A DNA stretch of 64,000 nucleotides from an uncultured Paraprevotella sp. (GTDB taxonomy: Bacteria > Bacteroidota > Bacteroidia > Bacteroidales > Bacteroidaceae). The notes beneath the pieces were generated by a model. That model was not told the DNA's origin. It saw only the letters and a list, made by a program, of their open reading frames with translations, and ran no database searches. The position numbers were made by a program, and so were the translations under genes. Shown piece by piece: positions 44,958 through 50,144 of the stretch (the stretch's first letter is position 1; every line of letters begins with the position of its first letter). The DNA lies in the NCBI GenBank assembly GCA_944320775.1, contig CALUIV010000011.1:1-64000 (forward strand). Direction: 5' to 3'.

Positions 44958-46865
44958 TTATACGTTCAGACTTTCGATATAGCTTTCCAGTTTTTTATAG
45001 AAAGGCGAGCGGCATAATGTGGCCTTGTTACCCAGCAGGATCAGTTTCATTCGGGCTCGGGTGATGGCCACATTCATGCGGCGCAGGTCATTCAGAAAAC
45101 CGATATTTCCTTCCTGATTGGCGCGTACGAGACTGATGACAATAATGTCACGTTCCTGTCCTTGAAAACCGTCGACGGTGTTGACGGTGATGGCTTGTCG
45201 GAACGGTTTGAAATACGGATCTTTTTTTAATAATTGCCGGAGCAGGACGACCTGACCTTTGTAGGGTGAGATCAGTCCCAGATCAATGCGTTCGGATAAG
45301 ATTCTTTCTTTTCCGATTTTCTCAAAATAGCGGCGGATGGTTTCAATCGTCATTTCTGCTTCTGCACGGTTGCAGCGACTCAGTCCGTCGGTGGTTTCTT
45401 CCGGCATGGTGTCGTCGTCCGTTTGCGTGTCGATCCATTCTATGGGGGTATCCCAATCAAGAATTCCTCTGTATTTGACTTCCGGGGCGCTTTTCAGTTT
45501 TCCGCCGTAGAACCATTCGGCCGGGAAACGCATGATTTCTTCATTCATGCGGTATTGAATTTCAAGCAGATGGACGGTCGCCGGTTTGTTTTCTGCGATG
45601 GCCTGCATCAGGGTGCGGTCCAGTCCGCCTCGTTTGGCTTCGAACGATTTGATGGTGGGGGGGAGTTGCTGATGGTCGCCGGCCAGAATGACGCGTCCGG
45701 CTTTTTGTATGGCAATCCAGCAGGCGGCTTCGAGAGCCTGTGCCGCTTCGTCGATAAACAGGGTAGAGAATTTCTTGCCGGTTAATACCCGGTTGGCCGA
45801 GCCGGTCAGCGTGGAGGCGACAACGCGCGCTTCGTTGAAAAGTGCTTCGTTGATGGCAATTTCCAGTTCTGTGGCCCGTTCGCGCAGTCTGGCTATCTTT
45901 TGATGGAAGCTGTCGCCCGATGCATGACTTTTTCGATTGGTATACAGGTCGCGGATGGCTTTCCGGATGGCCCATAATTGGGGATAGGACGGATGACTTT
46001 CGAAGCGCCGTTCGTAGGTGAACGAAAGCATTTTGTCGTTCACCCGGGCCGGATTACCGATGCGCAGAACCGGTACACCGCGGTCAACCAGTTTTTCGGC
46101 AATCCAGTCGACAGCCATATTACTTTGTGCACAGACGAGCACCTGACTTTCCCGATGGAGTGTTTCGTAGATAGCCTCTACCAGCGTAGTTGTTTTTCCA
46201 GTTCCCGGAGGTCCGTGGACAATTGCTACGTCTTTGGCGCGCAGCACCAGATTGACGGCGGCTTCCTGGCTCGTGTTCAGCCAGGGAAAGCGTATGGGTT
46301 GAAAAGCATAGTTGCCGGCTGGTTGTGTGCCGTGAAAGATTTCACGCAGTTCGGGCAGTCTGCCGGTTTTGGCCCGAAGTACCCGGTCGAGTGCTTCGAA
46401 CATCAGTTTGTAGGTTGTTTCGTCCAGATAAAGCTGCACCCCGAGCCGATAAGCGGATTGAAGGGCGCTCCAGCCTTCCGGACCGGGAAGGGTAATGGTC
46501 ATTATGTCGCCGTCTACATAGCTTACCTGTCCTTGGATATTCATATATTTGAGCCGGCCTTCTCCGCCACGACGGATGTTGTCGCCCGAAATTTCTTCCG
46601 TGAAGAAACAAACCGGTTTTCCCGGTTCAAAGTTATGGTCGGTGTCGAGTTGTTCCGTACGCTCCACTTCAATGGTAAACTGGTTGAGCGAATTGTAGTA
46701 GCTTTTGCGTACGCGTAAAGGAAACCAGCAGACTCCCTGACGGATTTTCCGGTTGATGCCTGTCGTTTCGGTCTGCTTTTCGAAAAGCCGTTTCTCCTCT
46801 TCGTATTCCAATTCGAGCAGTTGTCGCTGTTTTTGTAGGGTGAGTATGCTGGATCCTGTTGCCAT
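44958..46865 (-). CDS. superfamily 1 helicase of the Upf1/SMUBP-2 type
   Basis: This 635-residue protein has an N-terminal beta-barrel region (about 40-150) and two RecA-like domains. Walker A is GPPGTGKT (218-225). DEAAQALE (motif II), QYRMNEEI (motif IV), VNTVDGFQGQERDIIVISLVR (motif V) and RRMNVAITRARMKLILLG (motif VI) follow. The DEAA and FQGQE patterns place it with the Upf1-like SF1B helicases that move 5' to 3' on DNA or RNA. Similar genes are common in Bacteroidetes without a defined role. Its stop is 19 bases from the convergent sod gene. Confidence 0.92.
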   Translation of the reverse strand: MATGSSILTLQKQRQLLELEYEEEKRLFEKQTETTGINRKIRQGVCWFPLRVRKSYYNSLNQFTIEVERTEQLDTDHNFEPGKPVCFFTEEISGDNIRRGGEGRLKYMNIQGQVSYVDGDIMTITLPGPEGWSALQSAYRLGVQLYLDETTYKLMFEALDRVLRAKTGRLPELREIFHGTQPAGNYAFQPIRFPWLNTSQEAAVNLVLRAKDVAIVHGPPGTGKTTTLVEAIYETLHRESQVLVCAQSNMAVDWIAEKLVDRGVPVLRIGNPARVNDKMLSFTYERRFESHPSYPQLWAIRKAIRDLYTNRKSHASGDSFHQKIARLRERATELEIAINEALFNEARVVASTLTGSANRVLTGKKFSTLFIDEAAQALEAACWIAIQKAGRVILAGDHQQLPPTIKSFEAKRGGLDRTLMQAIAENKPATVHLLEIQYRMNEEIMRFPAEWFYGGKLKSAPEVKYRGILDWDTPIEWIDTQTDDDTMPEETTDGLSRCNRAEAEMTIETIRRYFEKIGKERILSERIDLGLISPYKGQVVLLRQLLKKDPYFKPFRQAITVNTVDGFQGQERDIIVISLVRANQEGNIGFLNDLRRMNVAITRARMKLILLGNKATLCRSPFYKKLESYIESLNV

Positions 46866-47990: not shown

Positions 47991-48021
47991 TTGTTTTATT
48001 GCTGCTTTCCGATTATCTTTG
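47991..48021 (+). promoter_or_regulatory. promoter of the ATPase-DUF4435 pair
   Basis: TTG (47991-47993) and TATCTTTG (48014-48021) are spaced by 20 bases, 26 bases before the ATPase ATG. The EamA gene is transcribed away from it on the other strand. Confidence 0.65.
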
Positions 48022-48047: not shown

Positions 48048-48872
48048 ATGGAAAAGCAAGGTGAATATATTCGTCGCGTAGAGATTGACTCTTTGTGGAG
48101 CGGACGCCATCATGTGATTTGGAATTTGCAGCCCGATGTGAACATTCTGAGTGGCGTGAATGGCGTGGGCAAGAGTACGATTCTGAACAAAGTAGTCCGT
48201 TATCTGGTGCAGCAAGCCAGCGGTTGTCTGAGTCGTGACATGCCAGGAGTCAAGATTACGTTTCATCCGAAAGATGCCGAAAGCGTGCGGTTTGACGTAA
48301 TCCGAAGTTTCGACCGGCCTTTGATTCAAGGCGGTTTGTTGGAGAAACTTACGGATACCCGTGTGGCAACGGAGCTCGACTGGCAGCTCTATCAGCTTCA
48401 GCGCCGTTATCTGGATTATCAGGTCAATATCGGTAATCGGATGATCGAGATGTTGACCAGTGGTAATCCCGATGCCCAACGGTTGGCTCAGGAGCAGGCT
48501 TTTGCCAAGACTCAGTTTCAGAATATAGTGGATGAGCTTTTTCAGGAAACGGGTAAGACGATAGATCGGAAAAGTAACGAAATCCTGTTTTTCCAAATGG
48601 GTGAAGTGTTGGCTCCTTATCAGTTGTCTTCAGGAGAAAAACAGATTCTGGTGATCCTGCTGACGGTGTTGGTCGAGGATAAACAGCCTTACGTATTGTT
48701 CATGGACGAGCCGGAAATCAGTCTGCATGTGGAATGGCAACAGAAACTGATCGACCTGATCCGTCAGATCAATCCGAAAGTCCAGATTATTTTGACGACG
48801 CATTCACCGGCGGTTATTATGAACGGTTGGATGGATGCCGTGACGGAAGTTTCCGACATTACGAAAGAATAA
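48048..48872 (+). CDS. ABC/SMC-like AAA ATPase paired with a DUF4435 protein
   Basis: This 274-residue ATPase has Walker A GVNGVGKST (36-44), an ABC signature LSSGEKQ (193-199), Walker B with Asp220-Glu221 (VLFMDEPE) and a switch histidine at 252 (TTHSPAV). This is the AAA_21/AAA_15 type, compact, with only about 150 residues between Walker A and the signature. It resembles the ATPase partners of TOPRIM nucleases in defence systems (OLD, PARIS AriA), but those are much longer. The partner gene starts 35 bases downstream and no other gene is in the operon. Function in defence or nucleic-acid surveillance is inference. Confidence 0.85.
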   Translation: MEKQGEYIRRVEIDSLWSGRHHVIWNLQPDVNILSGVNGVGKSTILNKVVRYLVQQASGCLSRDMPGVKITFHPKDAESVRFDVIRSFDRPLIQGGLLEKLTDTRVATELDWQLYQLQRRYLDYQVNIGNRMIEMLTSGNPDAQRLAQEQAFAKTQFQNIVDELFQETGKTIDRKSNEILFFQMGEVLAPYQLSSGEKQILVILLTVLVEDKQPYVLFMDEPEISLHVEWQQKLIDLIRQINPKVQIILTTHSPAVIMNGWMDAVTEVSDITKE

Positions 48873-48907
48873 ACAACTGTCCCCTGTGGATTAAACCGAT
48901 TCTGATT

Positions 48908-49972
48908 ATGGCAAAGCGATTGTCCGAGCATTTGAATTCCCTTTATGTGGGAGCTGCTAATAAAATGCGTCCGAAAAAGACGCGTCGTCGGATTGTGGCT
49001 TATGTGGAAGGGTATGATGATGTGTCCTTCTGGCGGTCTGTGCTGGATGAGTTTGAGGACGAAGAGCATTATTTTGAAGTAATGCTGCCTTCGCGCACAT
49101 CGCTGGGTAAGGGCAAGAAACTTGTCCTGACCAATCAGTTGGGCGAGCAGTTGGGCGAGAATATGATTGCGTGTGTCGATGCCGATTATGATTATTTGTT
49201 GCAGAATGCCAATTATACTTCCCGGTTTATCAACCGTAGTCCTTACGTGTTTCACACCTATGTCTATGCCATAGAGAATTATCAGTGCTATGCACCCAGT
49301 CTGCACAGTGTTTGCGTCATGGCGACGCTGAACGACCATCAGTTGGTCGATCTGGAAGGCTTTATGCGCAAGTATTCCATCATTATCTGGCCCTTGTTTG
49401 TCTGGTCAATCTGGGCTTACCGGAATAATTGTTATCGGGAATTTACGATGACGGATTTCGGCAATATCATTTCCTTTGGTGAGATTAATGTTTATCATCC
49501 CGAGAATACGCTGGAGGCCGTACGCCGCAGGGTAAACCGGAAAATGGCTGCCTTGCAGCATCATTTCCCGGAGGCAAAACGGAGTTACGAACCCCTGAAA
49601 AAGGAATTGCTCCGTTTGGGAGTAACGCCCGAAACTACTTACCTTTATATTCAGGGACACACACTTTTTGATAATGTCATATCTCCTTTGCTGGTTCCAG
49701 TCTGTACACTGCTCCGTAAGGAACGCGAGCGCGAAATCCATCGGTTGGCAGAACACGAAGTGCAGATGCAGAATGAATTGTCGTCTTATCAGCACAGTCA
49801 GAATCCGGTAGAGGCGATGTTGCGAAAGAACCAGAATTTCAAAACGGCCCCTCCTTATCAGCTTTTACGCAGAGATCTGTCGCGGCTTATGGAGCGGATT
49901 CGAAGGTCTGAAGAAGAGAAAATTCAGACGGCCGACGCACAACAGCCGGAAGAAATACAGAATCAGGACTGA
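48908..49972 (+). CDS. DUF4435 (TOPRIM-like) protein
   Basis: The protein has 354 residues. The N-terminal part has TOPRIM-like acidic motifs: Glu34 in YVEGYDDVSFW and Asp91/Asp93/Asp95 in CVDADYDYL. A family segment follows (YVYAIENYQCYAPSL). The C-terminal half is helical with a coiled coil (about 280-320). DUF4435 is the domain of AriB, the effector of the PARIS anti-phage system, which is held by its ATPase partner until triggered. The in-frame region upstream of 48908 runs through the ATPase gene, so the ATG at 48908 is the start. The gene directly follows the ATPase gene and has an inverted repeat after it. Confidence 0.8.
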   Translation: MAKRLSEHLNSLYVGAANKMRPKKTRRRIVAYVEGYDDVSFWRSVLDEFEDEEHYFEVMLPSRTSLGKGKKLVLTNQLGEQLGENMIACVDADYDYLLQNANYTSRFINRSPYVFHTYVYAIENYQCYAPSLHSVCVMATLNDHQLVDLEGFMRKYSIIIWPLFVWSIWAYRNNCYREFTMTDFGNIISFGEINVYHPENTLEAVRRRVNRKMAALQHHFPEAKRSYEPLKKELLRLGVTPETTYLYIQGHTLFDNVISPLLVPVCTLLRKEREREIHRLAEHEVQMQNELSSYQHSQNPVEAMLRKNQNFKTAPPYQLLRRDLSRLMERIRRSEEEKIQTADAQQPEEIQNQD

Positions 49973-50060
49973 GCCGAAATTTTCTTTGAACAGGGCTTAT
50001 TTATTGGGGATAAAATTTGTCCGTCAATAGAAATGAATCTGATTTACAGCAGATAATCAA

Positions 50061-50103
50061 AATGGCTTTATCGGTTCTTTGTATCAGAAGCGATAAAGCC
50101 ATT
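50061..50103. terminator. hairpin between the DUF4435 and trkA genes
   Basis: AATGGCTTTATCG (50061-50073) pairs perfectly with CGATAAAGCCATT (50091-50103). The genes on both sides end toward it; the T run is better on the minus side, so it may mainly serve trkA. Confidence 0.7.
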
Positions 50104-50144
50104 GTTATATCAGGTTGGTATATTGAAACCAATACCTGTTGTCG

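Follow-up and report, generated by a model that had tools for sequence, protein, structure and literature searches.

What does a gene pair with the parts of an anti-phage system do when it is passed down like a core gene? The question is raised by two adjacent genes in a stretch of 64,000 nucleotides (hereafter the window: positions 1 to 64,000, forward strand, of contig CALUIV010000011.1, GenBank assembly GCA_944320775.1) from an uncultured Paraprevotella sp. of the family Bacteroidaceae. The first gene encodes a compact ABC ATPase and the second a DUF4435 protein, a pairing known from PARIS (AriA plus AriB in Escherichia coli), an abortive-infection system reported in 5.2% of genomes (PMC9122126) and in 20% of human gut metagenome-assembled genomes (PMC10924106). 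By sequence and predicted fold, the window's pair is a compact, core-inherited unit of the PARIS type, and its function is likewise predicted. The explanation we place first, at roughly even chances, is that this unit, vertical and near-universal in Bacteroidaceae, acts as a triggered translation-arrest switch that provides core immunity through abortive infection.

PARIS-type pairing and predicted folds

The two open reading frames (ORFs) lie on the same strand, ATPase first, with a gap of 35 bases between them (Table 1). The published score rule for PARIS (Rousset; AAA_15 32 / AAA_21 27 bits, DUF4435 27 bits, genes adjacent; PMC9122126) applies to them: the ATPase scores 67.5 bits with AAA_15 and 74.2 bits with AAA_21, and the adjacent protein 192.7 bits with DUF4435, with no second Pfam family in that protein down to an E-value of 1. 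Both proteins match PADLOC PARIS profiles, and among the homologues tested 66/66 DUF4435 proteins matched AriB models and 65/65 ATPases matched AriA models. The AlphaFold2 model of the ATPase has AriA as its nearest solved structure. That of the DUF4435 protein best matches AriB, followed by the Toprim domains of OLD enzymes, pointing to a predicted AriB-like Toprim fold; VIA-align gave a second look, which covered the folds on Foldseek's list. The original prediction, drawn from the letters of the window alone, had given the coordinates, two-gene layout and intergenic gap found here, together with the ATPase motifs (residues 36–44, 193–199, 220–221 and His252) and the DUF4435 acids (E34, D91, D93, and D95). 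It had proposed a PARIS-like domain pairing with a TOPRIM-like second protein, and named a model devoid of a Toprim fold as evidence to the contrary; residues, profiles and predicted folds all agree with the proposed pairing.

The catalytic acids of an AriB-like fold, a PARIS feature, are found both in the predicted model and throughout the alignment: E34, D38, G69, K70, D91, D93, and D95 are identical in 97/97 aligned DUF4435 proteins (L049, from the same genome as L021, was omitted from alignments), and position 68 is always lysine or arginine. The acids and the GK pair also occur in a plasmid-borne DUF4435 protein of 22% identity. In one AriB study, the change E26A inactivates the two-metal tRNase, K60 and K64 hold the anticodon loop in an AlphaFold 3 model, and alanine changes of these lysines abolish defence (PMC12409363). 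K68 lies 34 residues past E34, as K60 does past E26, and the basic residues 68 and 70 fall near the K60/K64 position, a match of spacing and not a residue-level alignment. Variable stretches of the protein comprise residues 181–240 and the tail. A further ATG in the frame lies upstream at 48734; the start at 48908 is supported because conservation of M1, K3, and R4 reaches 90% or more across 66 homologues. In the ATPase, E197, D220, E221, and H252 are present in 96/96 homologues and K42 in 95/96, the single gap being a clipped ORF start.

Two other known combinations resemble the pair in part. The OLD family (classes 1, 2, and Gabija) also joins an ABC ATPase to a Toprim nuclease, and by extension the ATPase-controlled Toprim protein of the window might attack DNA and not tRNA. 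OLD enzymes are DNA nucleases with both domains in one polypeptide (OLD classes 1/2, GajA), whereas here a stop codon and the 35-base gap separate the ORFs, and OLD is the weaker structural match; we consider an OLD-like DNA nuclease improbable. In Septu and the retron-associated PtuA, the partner of the ATPase is an HNH nuclease according to the same AriB study (PMC12409363), whereas here it is a Toprim protein. No HNH partner (PtuB) or retron was found beside the ATPase, whose partner is the DUF4435 protein and whose searched neighbours are of other kinds.

A compact ATPase

The ATPase keeps the ABC head of AriA and is much shorter than the E. coli protein (274 vs. 464 amino acids). PARIS typically has an AriA as long as the E. 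coli protein, its ABC head carrying a large insert, although the published rule does not ask for this. The window encodes no such form; the structure model instead predicts a middle lobe of two helices (residues 109–137 and 143–164). Residues 106–135 are more conserved (0.82–0.83) than the protein on average (0.70), and the variable stretches are 46–75 and 91–105 (structure alignments comprised 58 of the 80 named loci for each protein; the conservation profile omits five sequences, namely four short ATPases and L044). A hypervariable arms-race sensor in the ATPase was considered and rejected, the middle lobe at 106–135 being conserved.

The original prediction had described a minimal ATPase in a compact relative of PARIS. 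The protein is indeed smaller than E. coli AriA, and a novel minimal ATPase it is not. A compact AriA model in PADLOC (PDLC04164, 253 positions) is matched at 4–252, and 13 of the 16 related ATPases examined are equally small (244–307 amino acids; the others 331, 360, and 443). Because compactness is common to these related pairs and the PADLOC model, it is not the novelty. PDLC04164 represents a compact ATPase of the same kind; as a bare profile it is silent on core inheritance, and no tested function was found for it. Four ATPases of only 221–244 residues (L031, L033, L059, and L077, from four genomes in two genera), in which the middle lobe is truncated or absent, are possibly the smallest AriA-like heads.

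Distribution and inheritance in Bacteroidaceae

We surveyed one genome per species at a completeness of at least 90%, giving 151 genomes of a family that appears to be Bacteroidaceae in the GTDB sense. The DUF4435 gene was detected in 146/151 genomes and in 22/22 genera, close to the control gyrB (151/151, of which 150 were over the cut-off); the control HsdR reached the cut-off in 68/151, with any match in 99. Whereas PARIS is reported from a small fraction of genomes, the window's pair is thus near-universal and vertical in its family. Identity of the DUF4435 protein was 46–76% across most of the family. One of the 146 genomes (G024) has a divergent pair, 31% identical, which may be a replacement; a second, divergent pair was seen in five family genomes. 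In G178 the two matches are separated by ~1.5 kb.

Beyond the family, matches were sparse. In an earlier sample, 36/37 family genomes had a match, the one exception being 77% complete, and so did 2/24 genomes outside. In an order-wide sample 18/247 genomes matched, four of them in the family and 14 others at most 39% identical (14/243 outside the family, since the listed misses start with other families and the remaining 243 were taken as non-family). Class-wide, 7/296 matched; six belong to the family, and the seventh (E 5.8e-4) contains five stops. The 80 named loci kept, of at least 578 relatives, are labelled Paraprevotella, Phocaeicola, Alloprevotella, Bacteroides, Prevotella, or Prevotellamassilia, or Bacteroidaceae, Prevotellaceae, or Bacteroidales bacterium, with three exceptions (Clostridium, Roseburia, and an uncultured bacterium); the protein searches likewise refer to the best 120 of thousands of matches.

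The two genes have stayed together. The ATPase lies directly upstream of the DUF4435 gene in 97/98 fetched loci (97 genomes) and in 77/80 named loci, all exceptions being contig edges; the named and unnamed sets overlap, and L082 lacks the ATPase because of a contig edge. Trees covered 75 genomes out of 80; the pair is absent from the five left out. Genera with at least two members formed clades in 15/16 cases for DUF4435, 14/16 for the ATPase, and 13/16 for gyrB, and each gene tree recovered 35/48 well-supported gyrB splits. Normalised Robinson–Foulds distances were 0.49 (gyrB–DUF4435), 0.46 (gyrB–ATPase), and 0.38 (DUF4435–ATPase), with tree-distance correlations of 0.61, 0.47, and 0.72, respectively, none of which was reached in 500 permutations; some discordance persists. 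Part of the gene order has survived: among 141 loci from overlapping sets, 32 have EamA, 31 the helicase, 33 TrkA, and 31 dxs, although the arrangement is mostly eroded or runs past the fetched stretch. The window unites both flanks. Together, these sequence data point to vertical inheritance of a near-universal pair in Bacteroidaceae. Universal vertical conservation in the order, with a known non-defence role, had been named in the original prediction as the outcome that would speak against it; conservation is near-universal and vertical in the family, does not extend to the order, and is not tied to any known non-defence role.

A further reading is an ordinary mobile PARIS, common in the family through repeated transfer. 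Relatives do move (a 4.4-kb Klebsiella plasmid, an E. coli copy beside IS3), some family genomes have the second, divergent pair, and about a quarter of the well-supported gyrB splits (13/48) were absent from each gene tree. That reading is already disfavoured, and we judge it very improbable: the pair spans 22 genera when each species is represented by a single genome, genus clades are kept in the gene trees, gene order is partly kept, and 50,697 phage records yielded no match. Two Bacteroidaceae plasmids did match; one shows the gene order of the chromosome and appears to be a piece of it, and for the other no genes are listed in that stretch.

The five genomes without the DUF4435 gene also yielded no close match to the ATPase (best E 2.8e-6, or none) and represent three lineages on the gyrB tree. 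We infer that these absences are losses, because they are nested in that tree. G088 lacks the pair, and its EamA and MscS-like genes, which in other genomes lie on either side of it, are ~180 bases apart. In a tight clade without the pair (G129, G137, and G152), other genes lie between EamA and the MscS-like gene, and those of G137, at the pair's usual site, are read as an insertion or rearrangement. That stretch of G137 (L265 2513–7338; corresponding gap in L266 and L267) holds three genes, presumably for aconitase, isocitrate dehydrogenase, and citrate synthase. Because the pair is absent in three lineages it is dispensable, as immune genes are.

Relatives outside the family

The closest DUF4435 proteins found outside Bacteroidaceae belong to another family (f107); they are 36–39% identical (L275 and L276 36–37% over the alignment) and keep the predicted catalytic residues (Table 1). 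No ATPase was found at these loci or, by profile searches, in 2/2 genomes, except for a weak match (E 6.9e-4) in one. A strict two-gene rule was rejected on this ground. In the wider tree, which omits L275 (ORF dropped by the overlap filter) and L288 (two genes apart), the core clade of Bacteroidaceae groups apart (28/29 sampled members, support 0.89 and 0.86). Two further families of the order (f57, L277/L278; f100, L280/L281) each have two matching genomes, in which the pair has neighbours of nearly identical size, suggesting that inheritance is stable there as well. Outside Bacteroidaceae, some pairs adjoin genes read as housekeeping, e.g. ruvB.

A 4.4-kb ColRNAI-type plasmid of Klebsiella pneumoniae (L289 1–1948) carries a compact ATP-binding protein (~325 amino acids) with a DUF4435 protein, and because of this location the compact form is also a small mobile cassette. 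In E. coli, a distant DNA match over about one-third of the query was present in 20/5,426 genomes; at the one locus examined, IS3 immediately precedes a short ATPase gene.

Two proposed roles: core immunity or a domesticated unit

In PARIS, the ATPase assembles and holds the nuclease until a trigger frees it to cut tRNAs (PMC11455837; PMC12409363). Further hallmarks of PARIS are a ring-shaped ATPase assembly, phage anti-restriction proteins as triggers, and protection from phage. In E. coli PARIS, loss of ariA by itself had no toxic effect (PMC9122126). By analogy, the window's ATPase would bind the nuclease in a complex that depends on ATP and so keep it inactive, and a trigger would alter the shape of the ATPase and release the nuclease. 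Once free, the nuclease would form a dimer and use two metal ions to cleave tRNAs, and tRNA cutting would halt growth before the phage completes its cycle. The parts that such a switch needs are present and conserved in the sequences; the events are carried over from PARIS and should be read as expected behaviour. The likely trigger site differs from that of PARIS, because AriA's large insert is missing.

Several observations weigh against core immunity of this kind. Near-fixed vertical genes amid core genes are unusual for defence, the neighbours include no recognised defence gene or mobile element, and the pair occurs also in genomes without HsdR, including the window's own genome, where HsdR had no match. 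Most of AriA's insert is gone and the middle lobe is conserved, unlike the variable sensor that an arms race might produce. Foldseek alone scarcely separates AriA (E 6.3e-10) from the retron PtuA (E 9.0e-10) as a match for the ATPase. Neither the DUF4435 sequence (P0002) nor a profile (A1) gave a sequence-level match to AriB among PDB structures, so the AriB link rests on the predicted fold. Finally, the f107 DUF4435 protein stands alone, and holding by an ATPase is therefore not always needed.

The main rival is a housekeeping unit, in which a PARIS-type pair would have been captured by an ancestor of the family and given a cellular task with an internal trigger, for instance in tRNA quality control or in arresting growth under stress. 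Near-fixation with vertical descent, a likely vegetative promoter box shared throughout the genus (see below), the conserved middle lobe, and presence without HsdR are all in line with it, and the f107 relative, with the same catalytic residues and without an ATPase in 2/2 genomes, raises it somewhat. There is also a precedent in Cran1, an OLD-family enzyme of the archaeon Saccharolobus: it is reported to have a cell-cycle role, and no antiviral effect was found (PMC12796447). Like the window's pair, Cran1 is a member of a defence-type ATPase–Toprim superfamily kept in its lineage; unlike the pair, which was lost in three lineages, Cran1 has a gene that proved impossible to delete, and the enzyme acts as a nickase (PMC12796447). 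Those losses mean that the pair is not essential, its characterised relatives are defence genes, and the protein evolves fast, all of which argue against domestication. We regard domestication as the less likely reading, though one to be taken seriously. Core immunity is favoured, not strongly, because the relatives of known function that stand nearest to the pair serve in defence and because genomes can do without it; the f107 orphans shifted the weights of both readings to those given here.

Promoter, terminator, and genomic setting

A TAnnTTTG box, which we take to be the Bacteroidetes −7 consensus, precedes the ATPase start, and TAnCTTTG lies 5′ of the ATPase in 17/17 Paraprevotella loci examined (18 fetched for the genus). 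The promoter shared by the two genes in the original prediction thus has a likely −7 box, and its placement of the unit among core genes (sod, dxs, murF-alr) agrees with a Pfam scan of the neighbours: Fe/Mn superoxide dismutase, an AAA_11/AAA_12 helicase-like protein, an EamA transporter, TrkA, dxs, GSCFA, and a Mur ligase–alanine racemase. No defence gene or mobile element was recognised among these neighbours. The hairpin downstream of the pair (RNA fold −29.9 kcal/mol, z −8.06) likely serves as a two-way terminator for the pair and the convergent trkA. The G+C content of the pair is 0.474 vs. 0.447 for the window, and its third-position G+C falls inside the range of four neighbour genes.

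The helicase-like protein is encoded two genes upstream of the pair (window 44958–46865) and has only 635 amino acids. It matches Mokosh MkoA models via its helicase part (1.6e-84) and neighbours the pair in several genera.

Table 1. Coordinates of the pair, its motifs and flanking signals in the window, and of the f107 genes in their own loci.
Feature	Position	Strand	Remarks
Likely −7 promoter box of the pair (TATCTTTG)	48014..48021	+	TAnCTTTG recurs in genus; predicted
Compact AriA-like ABC ATPase gene	48048..48872	+	274 amino acids
ATPase Walker A	48153–48179	+	Residues 36–44, GVNGVGKST
Two-helix middle lobe of ATPase, replacing AriA's larger insert	48369..48539	+	Residues 108–164; predicted helices
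ATPase signature	48624–48644	+	Residues 193–199, LSSGEKQ
ATPase D220–E221	48705–48710	+	
AriB-like DUF4435 gene, predicted Toprim nuclease	48908..49972	+	354 amino acids
Predicted catalytic region	49007..49192	+	E34, D38, K68-G69-K70, D91, D93, D95; alignment of 97 proteins
Hairpin between the pair and convergent trkA, likely two-way terminator	50056..50108	.	23-nt arms, 87% complementary
f107 orphan DUF4435 genes	L275 8555–9664; L276 9338–10432		All predicted catalytic residues

Implications for gut Bacteroidaceae

In the open-licence literature, with most subscription papers outside that scope, we recognised no description of the pair as a core gene of Bacteroidaceae. Transposon or fitness data on it were likewise not found, including by a word search of a Phocaeicola vulgatus paper on random-barcode transposon sequencing. 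The gut PARIS matches of the metagenome survey may belong to this clade, and the pair may explain the 20% figure.

A near-universal PARIS-type pair implies either a fixed innate immune gene of a gut family or a tamed suicide module. In the latter case, a small ABC ATPase answering an internal signal, coupled to a tRNA-cutting nuclease, would be a standard growth-control switch of dominant gut bacteria, a proposal that we make tentatively. If the housekeeping reading were true, much of the PARIS defence counted in gut Bacteroidales would represent a core gene instead of immunity gained by transfer.
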